Positions 5,658-37,199 of a stretch of 64,000 nt of DNA are shown in pieces. The stretch lies in NCBI GenBank assembly GCA_947486575.1, contig CANKUB010000012.1, positions 1-64,000 on the forward strand, in the 5' to 3' direction. Each line of letters starts with the position of its first letter. The first letter of the stretch is position 1. The position numbers and the translations under genes were made by a program. The DNA comes from Betaproteobacteria bacterium. Lineage in GTDB: Bacteria; Pseudomonadota; Gammaproteobacteria; Burkholderiales; SG8-41. The notes beneath the pieces are model-generated. The model worked only from the letters and a program-made list of their open reading frames with translations. It ran no database searches and was not told where the DNA came from.

Positions 5658-5870
5658 CTACTGATACGTGCGCTCCACGAAAGCGCTGACGTCGAAATCC
5701 TCAAAGTCGTCGTCAGGCTCCAGAATGGGCGCAGGGCGAACGGTGCGCGTTGCGAACGCACGCCGCGTAGGCGCCGACTGGGCTAGCCGCGGGCGCTTTT
5801 CTTCGCGCGCGTACGGCTCAAGGTCATCGATATCCGACTCACTGCCATATTCCCTTACGTGAACGATCAT
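5658..5870 (-). CDS. small acidic hypothetical protein (70 aa)
   Basis: The protein runs MIVHVREYGSESDIDDLEP, then a basic Arg/Ala/Pro-rich middle (KRPRLAQSAPTRR), then an acidic tail DDDFEDFDVSAFVER. It has no signal peptide or membrane segment and is probably largely disordered; the charge split is striking. A strong AAAGGAGAG ribosome-binding site stands directly before the ATG, which is the main reason to accept it. It faces the deacylase gene across a shared terminator and is otherwise isolated. I do not recognise the family. Confidence 0.65.
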   Translation of the reverse strand: MIVHVREYGSESDIDDLEPYAREEKRPRLAQSAPTRRAFATRTVRPAPILEPDDDFEDFDVSAFVERTYQ

Positions 5871-31735: not shown

Positions 31736-31863
31736 TCCTCTGCTCCGGTAAATTGAATCATCCACGCATAGCGTACGCCAACTGTGCCAAGGCGTAATGT
31801 CTGTTACGCAAGCACGCGGCAACGGGTTCTACATGCAACGCAACACCATAACGCAGGATGGGA

Positions 31864-31892
31864 AAATGTACAATAAAAACAAATACTTACGA
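31864..31892 (-). repeat. AT-rich interspersed element, copy 9 (spans gene start)
   Basis: On the minus strand: CGTAAGTATTTGTTTTTATT, then GTACATTT. It covers the start codon and first eight codons of the Bug receptor gene at 31866. Confidence 0.55.
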
Positions 31893-32846
31893 TGGATAGT
31901 CGGGCTGACAGCCAGCTTGTGCTGCAGTGGCGTATGGGGCCAAGTGGATAGCTTTCCCACCAAGCCCATACGCATCATCGTGCCGTTCGCGCCCGGCGGC
32001 AGCGTTGATCTGATTTCGCGTCTGATCTCATCGAAAATGAGCGAACTGCTGGGCCAGCAGATCATCGTTGAGAATCGCGCAGGCGCATCTGGCAACATCG
32101 GTACCGAGTTGGTGGCGCGCGCCACACCCGATGGTTACACGCTGTTGATGAACACATTGCCGTTTGTGGTCAACCCGAATATTTTTCCGCGCGTGCCGTA
32201 TCACCCGATCAATGATTTCGCGCCGGTGGGCATGGTGTCGTCGTCGCCTTCCGTGCTGACGGTGCATCCGTCGCTGCCGGTCCACAACGTCAAGGACTTG
32301 CTTGCGCTGACAAAATCGCGCCCTGGGCAAATCAATTATGCCTCGGCGGGCATCGGCACCAATCCGCATATCGCGGGCGAATTGTTTAATTTTCTGGGCA
32401 GAACCAGTCTGGTCGCCGTGCATTTCAAGGGTGGCGGGCCGGGCCTGATTGCGGCGATGAGCGGCGAAGTGAGCGCCACGTTTACCAACATCGCGGAAAC
32501 ATCCGTTTTTGTGCGCGCAAAAAAACTGCGTGCGTTAGGCGTCAGCAGCTTGAAGCGATCACCCGCATTCCCGGAAATACCCACCGTGCATGAAAGCGGG
32601 TTGCCGGGCTATGAGTTCATTACCTGGTTTGCGTTGATCGCCCCGGCGAAGACCCCGCGCGCGGTGATTGCGCAGATCAACGAGGCGATGAAAAAAACAC
32701 TGACGGCACCGGAGCAGGTGCGATTGTTTGCCGATCGCGGACTGGATATCGTCGCCAGTTCACCCGAAGGTGCCGCCGATCATCTCAAAAAAGAAGTCGA
32801 GCGCTGGGCGCGCGTGGTGAAAGAGCGCGGCATGAAGGCCGAGTAA
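31866..32846 (+). CDS. Bug/TctC-family solute-binding receptor (1)
   Basis: The 326-residue protein has a signal peptide ending at SGVWGQ (about residue 26). Family segments are FPTKPIRIIVPFAPGGSVDL (beginning of lobe 1), IVENRAGASGNIGTELVARATPDGY, and a C-terminal VERWARVVKERGMKAE. These periplasmic receptors bind small carboxylates or amides for tripartite transporters or for signalling. The start at 31866 gives MYNKNKYLRWIVGL, encoded by the AT-rich element; the upstream in-frame ATG at 31830 is possible. It is divergent from the small lipoprotein gene and convergent to the amidohydrolase gene. Confidence 0.9.
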   Translation: MYNKNKYLRWIVGLTASLCCSGVWGQVDSFPTKPIRIIVPFAPGGSVDLISRLISSKMSELLGQQIIVENRAGASGNIGTELVARATPDGYTLLMNTLPFVVNPNIFPRVPYHPINDFAPVGMVSSSPSVLTVHPSLPVHNVKDLLALTKSRPGQINYASAGIGTNPHIAGELFNFLGRTSLVAVHFKGGGPGLIAAMSGEVSATFTNIAETSVFVRAKKLRALGVSSLKRSPAFPEIPTVHESGLPGYEFITWFALIAPAKTPRAVIAQINEAMKKTLTAPEQVRLFADRGLDIVASSPEGAADHLKKEVERWARVVKERGMKAE

Positions 32847-32881: not shown

Positions 32882-33975
32882 TTACAACTTTATCCCCAGC
32901 AGCTTCGCCGCATTGCCGCCGAGTATCGCGATTTTCTGCGCATCCGTCAGCGGCGTTTTCATGATGTGATCGACGGGGTGCTCTTCCCACGGAATCGGGT
33001 GGTCGGTGCCAATCACCACCTGGCTCGCGCCGACTTGCGCAACCAGATGGCGCAGCGCTTCAGGCGTGAATACCAGTGCGTCGAAAAAAATCTGGTTCAG
33101 GTATTCGGTGGGCTTTTTCTTCAGCACAATGCCGGGGTCGCAGTTTTGCGGCGAGATAAAGCAGCCGTGATCGGAGCGCGGCGCGTATGAGCCGAGATAA
33201 CCGCCGCCGTGCGCGGCGCATACCTTGAGTTTGGGGAATTTATCCAGCGTGCCTTCAAAGATCAGGTGTTGCAACGCGATGGTGGTGTCGAGCGGATTGC
33301 CGATGACATTCGACAGCCAGCCGTTGCCCTTGAAGCGGCTCGCCAGTTGCGGCGTGCTTTGCGGATGGATGAACAGCGTAACGCCCAGTTCTTCGGCTTT
33401 GGCCCACACCGGATGATATTTCGCATCCGAGAAATCATTGCCCAGCACGCTGCCGCCAATGGCAGCACCCTTGAGACCGTACTTGCGCACGCCGTCCTCA
33501 AGCTGCTTAACCGCGAGATCGGGGAATTGCAGCGCGAGTGAAGCGAACGCCATCAGACGGTCAGGCTTCTTCGCGCATAGCTCGGCCAGTTTTTCGTTTT
33601 GCACTTCAATGATTTTTTCAACCAGATCGCGCTCTTTGCGATACCACCAGGGGTTGATGCTCAACACCTCGATATCGACGCCCTGCGCATCCATGCCCGC
33701 CAGACGCTCGTCCAGCACAATGTCAAATTGCTTGGAGCCCTTGGTCTGCGGATAAATCGATTGCGCTTCTTTCTCCGGCAGCAGCGCCAGCGCTTCGGCA
33801 ATCAGGCAATGCGCGTGAACGTCTATGGTTTTGACGCGCTTGCCTTTGACCAGCACCGGCAGACGGCTCGATTTTTTTGCGCGCGCGCCGGTGCGGCGCC
33901 CAGCAGGCTGCAGCCAGTGAAAATAACGCCTGCGCTTGCAGCAGCATCTTTGATGAAATTTCGACGGGTACTCAT
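32882..33975 (-). CDS. Tat-type ACMSD-like amidohydrolase, reading frame broken in an A7 tract
   Basis: The catalytic part (32882 to about 33856) is an amidohydrolase of the ACMSD/2,3-dihydroxybenzoate decarboxylase group: metal motif IDVHAHC, then CAAHGGGYLGSYAPRSDHG, and GTDHPIPWEEHP. It has no ribosome site of its own. Upstream, in another frame, a perfect AGGAGAG precedes ATG at 33975, giving MSTRRNFIKDAAASAGVIF, a twin-arginine signal, to APARAQ. The two frames meet at seven A's (33882-33888 as T's on the plus strand). One extra A would restore a single protein of about 364 residues. It may be a true pseudogene, a sequencing error or a slippage site. Substrate unknown. Confidence 0.75.
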
Positions 33976-34051
33976 GGCCTCTCCTGTGTGAGTTGTTGTG
34001 CGCGGATTATTGCACAGGCTTACACTGGCGCAGGCGCTGCACACGATAATT

Positions 34052-34141: not shown

Positions 34142-35110
34142 ATGAAACGCTTTTTGGCCGCATGCTCTGCCGTTGCATCGCTATCAGTACCACGGGCGCA
34201 CGCCGCTGATCCAGTCAAGGATTACCCGCTGCGCCCGGTGCGCATCGTGTCCGGGTTTGCGGCGGGCGGTAGTTCCGACTTTCTGGTGCGCGTGCTCGCA
34301 CCCAAACTGACCGAACGCCTCGGACAAACCTTCATCATCGAGAACCGCCCTGGCGCGGGGGGTGCCATAGGCGCCAATCTGGTGGCTAAAGCAACGCCTG
34401 ATGGCTATACCTTAATTTTCATCAGCGGCGCATTTACAGCGCAAGCAGCGTCGGTCAAGACACCCTACGATCCGCTGAAGGATTTCGAGTGGATTACCAC
34501 CATCGCCACCTACCCGTTTGTGGTTACCGTGCGCAACGATACGGCTGCGCGCAACACAGCGGAACTGATTGCGCTGGCCAAGAAGAGTCCCGGCAAATTG
34601 AATTATGGTTCTGTAGGCATCGGCTCCGTGTTTCATCTCGCGGCGGAATTGTTTAATTCGATGGCGGGTACGGAGTCGGTGCATGTCCCCTACAAGGGCA
34701 GCACCGATGCGCTGACCGATATGATCGGCGGTCGTCTCGACTACATGTTCATGACGCTTACAGGCGCGTCGCCGCATATTCGATCCGGGCGCATTCGTGC
34801 TATCGCGATCTGCTCAAAGGAACGCTCGCCGCAGATGCCTGAATTGCAGCCCGTTTCGCAGATATTGCCCGGCTATGAAGTCACGTCATTTGCGGGCATG
34901 GGCGCAACGGGCGGTACGCCCAAGCCGATTATTCAGAAACTGAACCGTGAACTGCGTGCCGTCATGGCAGGCAACGAAGTTGTCAGGCAAATGACGGATG
35001 CCGGGGCCGACATGCGCCCTGGCAGTCCGGAAGAAATGATTCGCTATGTCACGGATGAAATCGCCAAGTGGCGGCGGGTGGTAAAGGAGCGCAGAATAGA
35101 GGTGAAGTAG
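34142..35110 (+). CDS. Bug/TctC-family solute-binding receptor (2)
   Basis: The 322-residue protein starts MKRFLAACSAVASLSVP, with the signal peptide ending at AHAAD. Diagnostic parts are YPLRPVRIVSGFAAGGSSDF, IIENRPGAGGAIGANLVAKATPDGY and VHVPYKGSTDALTDMIGG. It opens a run of three receptor genes on the same strand (34.1-37.2 kb) and is divergent from the Tat amidohydrolase, which could act on the ligand. It is clearly more distant from the next two receptors than they are from each other. Confidence 0.92.
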   Translation: MKRFLAACSAVASLSVPRAHAADPVKDYPLRPVRIVSGFAAGGSSDFLVRVLAPKLTERLGQTFIIENRPGAGGAIGANLVAKATPDGYTLIFISGAFTAQAASVKTPYDPLKDFEWITTIATYPFVVTVRNDTAARNTAELIALAKKSPGKLNYGSVGIGSVFHLAAELFNSMAGTESVHVPYKGSTDALTDMIGGRLDYMFMTLTGASPHIRSGRIRAIAICSKERSPQMPELQPVSQILPGYEVTSFAGMGATGGTPKPIIQKLNRELRAVMAGNEVVRQMTDAGADMRPGSPEEMIRYVTDEIAKWRRVVKERRIEVK

Positions 35111-35187
35111 GCGCAGTACACCGCTACCGCCGCGCAGCGTTATTTGACAGCGGTTGCGCAAAATCTCGCTTTCCGCAGGAGGACAGC

Positions 35188-36183
35188 ATGAATACTTGCC
35201 GAGTAGGTTGTGCGTGCGCGATTGTCCTTGCCTATTTTGTGTTGCCGGGCAGCAACAAGTCTGGCCTGGCCCAGCCATTTCCTGCGAAGCCCATCAACAT
35301 GATCGCGCCCTATGCCGCCGGTGGCCCCACTGATACGGTGGCGCGGCTGGTAGCCGAGCCCATGCGCCGCTTCTTCGGGCAGCCGGTGGTGGTTGAAAAC
35401 ATCACCGGCGCAGGCGGTAGCATCGCCACGGCACGGGTTGCGCGCGCGACGCCAGACGGCTATACACTCAGCATCGGCCATTGGGGCTCGCATGTGGTGA
35501 ACGGCGCTTACTACAGTAACTTGCCCTTCGATTTGCGCACGGATTTTGAGCCGATTGCGTTGATTTCCTCCAACCCGCAGTTGCTGATTTCCAAGCTGTC
35601 GGTGCCCGCGAAAAACCTCAAGGAACTGATCCCGTGGCTTAAAGCCAATCACGACAAGGCGATGTTCGGCAGCGGCGGCGTGGGCGCTTCGTCGCATATT
35701 GGTGGCGCGTATTTTCTCAGTCGCATCGGCGTGAAAATGGAGTTCGTGCCGTATCGCGGTGGCGCACCCGCGATGCAGGCGCTGCTGTCAGGCGAATTCG
35801 AACTGTACATGACGCAGATTTCTGGTGCGGTGGGCCACATTCGCGCCGGAAAACTGCGCGCGTATCTGGTGTCGGACAAAAAACGCCAGGCCATCGCGCC
35901 GGAAATTCCCACCTCCGACGAAGCCGGTTTGCCGGGCCTTTACAACTCGATCTGGCATGGCCTATGGGCGCCCAAGGGCGCGCCGCGCGATGTGATAACC
36001 AAACTCAATGCTGCCGCAGTTGACGCATTGATGGACGACGCGTTGCGCAAGCGCTTTGCCGATCTTGGCCAGGAAATTCCGCCGCGCAACGAGCAAACGC
36101 CGCAGGCGCTCGGCGCTTTTCACAAGGCAGAGATTGATAAGTGGTGGCCGCTGATGCGGGCCGCAGGCATCAAGGCGGAATAG
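35188..36183 (+). CDS. Bug/TctC-family solute-binding receptor (3), tandem paralogue
   Basis: The 331-residue protein starts MNTCRVGCACAIVLAYF; the signal peptide ends near GLAQ. It shares long blocks with the next gene: GGPTDT, TLSIGHWGSHVVNGAYY, RIGVKMEFVPYRGGAPAMQALLSGE, AEIDKWWPLMRAAGIKAE. GCAGGAGG precedes the ATG at 35188; the frame from 35068 runs through the end of the previous gene. It is one half of a tandem duplication. Confidence 0.92.
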   Translation: MNTCRVGCACAIVLAYFVLPGSNKSGLAQPFPAKPINMIAPYAAGGPTDTVARLVAEPMRRFFGQPVVVENITGAGGSIATARVARATPDGYTLSIGHWGSHVVNGAYYSNLPFDLRTDFEPIALISSNPQLLISKLSVPAKNLKELIPWLKANHDKAMFGSGGVGASSHIGGAYFLSRIGVKMEFVPYRGGAPAMQALLSGEFELYMTQISGAVGHIRAGKLRAYLVSDKKRQAIAPEIPTSDEAGLPGLYNSIWHGLWAPKGAPRDVITKLNAAAVDALMDDALRKRFADLGQEIPPRNEQTPQALGAFHKAEIDKWWPLMRAAGIKAE

Positions 36184-36224
36184 AACGGAGTTTCATCAAA
36201 GCAGAATCACATCGAGAGGACAGC

Positions 36225-37199
36225 ATGAAATCACTGCTATGGGTTTACGCAGGGACGTTCACATTCGCGAGTATTTCAGAGAGCATTGCCCAACCGTGGC
36301 CTTCGCGTGCTATAGCGATCATCGTGCCATTTTCGGCCGGCGGGCCTACGGATACGCTGGCGCGCCTGATGAGCGAGCCAATGCGCCGGTTTTTGGGTCA
36401 AACGGTGGTAGTGGAAAACGTTACTGGCGCTGGCGGCAGTATTGGCGTCGGGCGCGTGGCGCGCGCCGCGCCCGACGGTTACACGCTGAGTATCGGTCAC
36501 TGGGGCACGCATGTGGTCAATGGCGCGTACTACAACCTGACATTTGATTTATTAAAGGACCTTGCGCCCGTCGCACAGATCGCCACCAATCCGCAATTGG
36601 TCTTGTCCAAAATTTCAGTCCCCGCAAAGAATATGAAAGAGCTGGCACCGTGGCTAAAAGCAAATCAGGACAAGGTGCAATTTGCGACGGGTGGCGTCGG
36701 TGGCGCTTCGCACATTTCAAGCATCTACTTTATCAATCGTATCGGCGCGAAGGTGGAATATGTGCCGTATCGGGGCGCTGCGCCGGCGTTGCAGGCGCTG
36801 ATGTCGGGAGAAGCTGATGTCAACATCTCGCAGATCGGCGGCTCCATACAGCATGTGCGCAGCGGCAAGTTGCGCGCCTACATGGTGACTGCCAACGCAC
36901 GGCAGAGCGCTGCGCCCGAAGTGCCGTCGGCAGACGAAGCCGGCATGCCGGGGTTGTACACTTCGGTGTGGCATGCGATCTGGGTGCCCGCGAAAACGCC
37001 GCGCGATATCATCACCAAACTCAATGCGTCAATCGTGGAAACTCTGGCAGATGACAACATCCGCAAACGCTTCGCCGACATCGGACAGGACATCCCGCCG
37101 CGCGCGGAACAAACGCCGCAGGCGCTGGCGGCGTATCACAAGGCAGAAATCGACAAGTGGTGGCCGTTGATGAAAGCAGCGGGGATTAAAGGGGAGTGA
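36225..37199 (+). CDS. Bug/TctC-family solute-binding receptor (4), tandem paralogue
   Basis: The 324-residue protein starts MKSLLWVYAGTFTFASIS with the signal peptide ending at SIAQ. Corresponding blocks to receptor 3 are GGPTDT, TLSIGHWGTHVVNGAYY, RIGAKVEYVPYRGAAPALQALMSGE and AEIDKWWPLMKAAGIKGE. GAGAGGACAG before the ATG is almost the same as at the paralogue's start, so the duplication included the ribosome-binding region. The ligand may have diverged. Confidence 0.92.
   Translation: MKSLLWVYAGTFTFASISESIAQPWPSRAIAIIVPFSAGGPTDTLARLMSEPMRRFLGQTVVVENVTGAGGSIGVGRVARAAPDGYTLSIGHWGTHVVNGAYYNLTFDLLKDLAPVAQIATNPQLVLSKISVPAKNMKELAPWLKANQDKVQFATGGVGGASHISSIYFINRIGAKVEYVPYRGAAPALQALMSGEADVNISQIGGSIQHVRSGKLRAYMVTANARQSAAPEVPSADEAGMPGLYTSVWHAIWVPAKTPRDIITKLNASIVETLADDNIRKRFADIGQDIPPRAEQTPQALAAYHKAEIDKWWPLMKAAGIKGE

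Follow-up and report, generated by a model that had tools for sequence, protein, structure and literature searches.

How should a gene be read when its export signal and its catalytic body lie in two different reading frames: as a device for making two products, or as one enzyme whose frame has been broken? The question is raised by positions 32,882–33,975 (minus strand) of the window (the whole 64,000-nucleotide stretch of DNA analysed here), where direct reading of the sequence places a leader open reading frame and an amidohydrolase in different frames. The leader open reading frame (33823–33975, minus strand; 50 amino acids) begins at ATG 33975, with a Shine-Dalgarno sequence, AGGAG (33981–33985, minus strand), 5 nt before it, and comprises a twin-arginine (Tat) leader (MSTRRNFIKDAAASAGVIFTGCSLLGAAPARAQ) of ~33 amino acids, ending APARAQ, and an out-of-frame tail to a stop that ends at 33823; these elements, all named in a preliminary description of the locus, were confirmed on the minus strand. 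The leader passes the curated NCBIfam twin-arginine model TIGR01409 (20.6 bits versus a cut-off of 16.7), by which the product of the split gene is a predicted Tat-exported protein, and is not a chance sequence: comparison with the leaders of three orthologues, L038, L039 and L042, gave identities of 66%, 84% and 78%, respectively.

The amidohydrolase frame (32882–33856, minus strand; GTG 33856 to a stop at 32882) is open from 34006, and its first ATG, GTG or TTG is GTG 33856, which precedes the leader stop by ~30 nt and has no Shine-Dalgarno sequence visible by eye, in line with the earlier statement that this frame has no start signal of its own. Its product passes the PF04909 (Amidohydro_2) model (114.1 bits versus a cut-off of 26.4; E = 1.4e-32) and contains HxH (DVHAHC), FIHP and GTDH, which we take to be the metal-ligand signatures of such enzymes. 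The catalytic-domain family is shared with ACMSD and related PF04909 decarboxylases (PDB 4igm, 4ofc and 2wm1), and we call the enzyme ACMSD-like for its similarity in sequence and fold. Four plus-strand genes surround it (31797–32846, 34142–35110, 35068–36183 and 36141–37199), presumably, from their look, encoding Bug/TctC-type substrate-binding proteins. As the leader and amidohydrolase frames overlap, homology was needed to place the break, and it did so between ...ARAQ (~33879) and ...SRLP (~33864), with homology in the amidohydrolase frame from ~33864–33871. The two frames meet at a tract of seven A's (33872–33878, minus strand; leader-frame codons CAA AAA AAT); the tract had been described at 33882–33888, 10 bases away.

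To place the split among relatives, we drew homologues from 100 genomes including the source genome (E ≤ 1e-100 matches in 49 of the 100) and from a GTDB contig collection, of which the best 80 of 83 relatives were kept, so that 117 5′ ends were examined (37 loci from the genomes and 80 from the collection). Ten of these rows repeat the enzyme sequence of another row and one (L102) is cut at a contig end; leaving these out gave 106 distinct rows, one of them the window's own copy, and setting aside that copy, four distant family members (L005–L008) and two rows cut at contig ends (L087 and L088) left 99 distinct homologues with complete 5′ ends. In all 99, an N-terminal segment with a cysteine shares one frame with the enzyme, as it likewise does in the ten repeat rows. 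(Outside the 117 examined 5′ ends, a 67% paralogue in genome G003 is flagged for an in-frame TAG.) Among the 11 orthologues of at least ~78% identity, no linker has seven A's, the longest A-run being six (L040), and in the nearest orthologue (L038/L009; 92% identity) a single frame runs through MTTRRSFLKETMSASSVIFTGCSLLNAAPARAQDKPKRSRLP, with linker A-runs of no more than two; a distant homologue (L068; 62%) does have seven A's in its linker, yet is in frame. A Tat leader is present at this place in 10 of the same 11 orthologues (all but L016), so the earlier reading withstands the test of orthologues that lack one there. Against the contig of the nearest relative, blastn matched only the split gene and one further stretch of 106 columns.

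Substitution patterns in the two halves were also compared. Relative to L038, dN/dS was 0.040 for the body and 0.172 for the leader, and relative to L039, 0.066 and 0.046, rough values with dS near saturation (1.0–1.9); purifying selection seems to act on both halves, although low dN/dS would also be expected if slippage kept the split gene alive. Amino-acid changes in the window's gene are not in excess: its body dN to L039 (0.067) is hardly above that between L038 and L039 (0.062), so no decay is seen, which suggests that the break is either very recent or absent from the organism.

Together, sequence and homology support the preliminary view of a single amidohydrolase gene with a Tat leader, its frame interrupted in or next to the A-tract, and make it very probable that an ordinary lineage-specific indel in a variable linker breaks the gene of a Tat-exported, ACMSD-like, metal-dependent amidohydrolase. 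A base lost inside the run is the simplest event that could lie behind the break, but linker length differs between orthologues, so the event need not have been a single base within the A-run, and other events are possible.

Two kinds of slippage could in principle give such a split a function, and a programmed role for either is, in our assessment, very unlikely. Programmed or compensating −1 ribosomal frameshifting would have both tRNAs re-pair one base back on A AAA AAT, stimulated by a downstream stem, and the locus has some of the expected anatomy: the heptamer is of the X XXY YYZ form and in register in the leader frame, and a stem predicted 3′ of the tract (33780–33868, minus strand) folds at −41.5 kcal/mol (z = −2.68 and −3.07 in two runs), with 2 nt between the heptamer and its outer pairs and ~10 nt between the heptamer and its main helix; a typical spacing is 5–8 nt (PMC4066793). 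A comparable stem (−46.5 kcal/mol, z = −3.13) is predicted in L039, a close orthologue that has no run of seven A's and is in frame. The 11 close orthologues, however, do not share the tract, the split is absent from all 99 homologues, and the strong stem is not conserved either: across the corresponding region of the 39 best-scoring distinct homologues the mean z was −0.29, and few matched the stem in strength (z ≤ −2.68 in two, L039 and L061; ≤ −41.5 kcal/mol in four). The strongest z of the 39 belongs to L039, so a strong stem can evidently arise without any frameshift site. Conserved stimulatory structures often, though not always, accompany bacterial −1 frameshift genes. In the scheme of PMC3711429, a programmed frameshift cluster needs a conserved site and five or more members. 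The heptamer occurs in frame eight times among 252 long stop-to-stop frames of a sample of the source genome. The most efficient −1 motifs in Escherichia coli are of the X_XXA_AAG type and A_AAA_AAC is inefficient (PMC4066793); no value was found there for A_AAA_AAU. We regard frameshifting as highly improbable.

RNA polymerase slippage at the tract, by which mixed transcripts would yield both the leader peptide and the full enzyme, was the preliminary suggestion, and has precedent in the slippage rescue of a broken gene, tssM of Citrobacter rodentium, at a run of 11 A's (PMC4256274); AAAAAAA is, moreover, underrepresented in all three frames of E. coli genes, with slippage one suggested reason (PMC4066793), which lends some weight to slippage at seven A's. 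Seven A's are nevertheless short, below the commonly used slippage length of nine: in a large fraction of genomes, A/T runs are evidently selected against at nine, although some bacteria may slip at shorter runs (PMC1088944), and 56 A/T runs of at least seven, the present tract included, are tolerated in long open frames of the genome sample. With a tract that close orthologues lack and 99 of 99 homologues unsplit, the notion of two useful products from slippage is not supported, and we give it hardly any credence. Nor does a design of two separate genes, a secreted leader peptide and a cytoplasmic enzyme initiated at GTG 33856 by reinitiation coupling, account well for the data. Non-exported forms probably exist, given that 30 of 80 aligned homologues have no Tat motif by a simple motif test, but homologues without the motif still carry the N-terminal cysteine segment in frame with the enzyme, and GTG 33856 shows no Shine-Dalgarno sequence to the eye and comes ~30 nt before the leader stop; such a design seems to us most improbable.

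For an indel in one lineage, we infer two possible causes: that the draft sequence carries an error or a minority variant, to which we assign about an even chance, and a genuine, very recent mutation, a serious possibility that we would not call probable. The source genome (98% complete) is in draft form, in 282 contigs, and we looked in it for signs of homopolymer error. Truncation of homopolymers as an assembly signature was considered and rejected, as A/T runs of six, seven and eight numbered 193, 65 and five in 337 kb of the source genome and 103, 32 and four, plus one of nine, in the 80 collection loci (300 kb), much alike in the two sets. Of the 70 A/T runs of at least seven in the 337 kb, 33 have coding signal on both sides, 31 of them keeping frame and two switching it, and 37 have no clear signal on one side, among them the window's own break, where the short leader gives the codon score too little to work on; the two switches, judged by eye, have other explanations, one being a lysine-rich tail and the other an intergenic run. 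No systematic homopolymer problem was visible among these 70 runs, which argues against a homopolymer-prone technology but leaves room for a single error or a genuine mutation.

A tblastn survey for frame breaks returned four candidates in the 128 kb covered of the source genome (the window locus, a convincing-looking one at ~118.7 kb of contig C1, one that is probably an antisense frame and one unclear) and three in the 142 kb covered of a relative (G001), of which one in a tyrS-like gene looks convincing. The C1 break (locus L127) is an apparent one away from long homopolymers, in a gene that we take from its sequence to be kinase-like; that in the relative (locus L144, contig C9, ~15.9–16.1 kb) lies near the 5′ end of a gene presumed from its sequence to be tyrS-like. 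tyrS is normally essential, and the break in it is probably a sequence error. With further apparent breaks in both genomes, isolated breaks look to be an ordinary property of such drafts. On another contig of the source genome (C35; locus L132), ~5.4–6.0 kb into the locus, a frame reading ...AGVGD*GSCSS... has an in-frame TGA at 5688; it resembles what we assume to be the UGSC type of (seleno)protein and may be a selenocysteine gene.

In PMC3711429, singleton frame-broken genes are, like the window's gene, broken in one examined genome with intact homologues elsewhere and have no conserved frameshift motif, and BLASTp-confirmed breaks that do not cluster are expected to stem from sequencing error and not from genuine indels; the window's break differs in sitting on a run of potentially slippery shape. 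The tssM gene resembles the window's gene in being intact but for a premature stop close to an A-run, but there the run is of 11 A's and slippage was demonstrated (PMC4256274), whereas the window's gene has seven A's. If the break is genuine, translation from ATG 33975 would give a leader peptide that ends in a short nonsense stretch, and only traces of the enzyme would be expected, through slippage on the A-run or weak initiation at GTG 33856, the latter product having neither the export signal nor the conserved cysteine.

That cysteine, in the FTGC codons of the leader (33910–33921, minus strand; computed coordinates), is itself conserved among the homologues. An alignment of 80 homologues has the VIFTGC cysteine in 80 of 80 rows and a phenylalanine three residues before it in 78; among the 99 complete homologues, [VILAM]xFxxC is found in 95, with a cysteine at a similar place in the other four; and in a second alignment (59 rows) the same column is nearly invariant, though not invariant. 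The rule for choosing start codons demanded a cysteine 11–50 residues upstream but lost no row (99 of 99 kept), and some chosen starts were internal, three of them corrected for the 80-row alignment. The cysteine extends beyond rows with a Tat motif: some of the 30 rows without a twin-arginine motif also have no evident hydrophobic stretch (for example, MHDHTHELAGELAFVDC...). On a tree of the 80 rows (window gene excluded), the Tat label, a crude one for which L020 is a doubtful positive, changes at least four times, and L016 (81% identical to the window's gene), which has no Tat motif and keeps VIFTGC, groups within a supported nine-row clade (100/98) with L038, L039 and other nearest orthologues.

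We take the conservation of the cysteine in the leader segment to be a real pattern. Predicted structures of the orthologue L038 (residues 14–24 with pLDDT < 50) and the non-Tat paralogue L004 (residues 1–14 and 22–34 with pLDDT < 50; the motif block averaging 54) offer no support for a placed role. The matched stretches of the ACMSD-type PDB sequences do not include the Tat/FxxC N-terminal segment of the window's gene, and among the 46 PDB sequences listed as relatives the best stretches start at profile position 41 or later, leaving that segment uncovered; a literature search, judged by titles and the starts of abstracts, found no described Tat amidohydrolase of this type. Our tentative suggestion, at somewhat under an even chance, is that the leader segment is not just disposable but a working part of the enzyme, with Tat export added or lost several times; the cysteine segment could then serve, for instance, as part of the active site, of a metal site or of a subunit contact, or as an anchor.

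These results suggest that the frame break matters for annotation only, and that the gene is best marked as disrupted or possibly mis-assembled, not as a two-product system. If the leader segment is indeed part of the working enzyme, the break would cost the enzyme one of its own elements along with the export signal. A conserved cysteine in a signal-peptide-like segment is the one point here worth experiment, since it would be missing from mature-enzyme constructs trimmed at the predicted AxA site.
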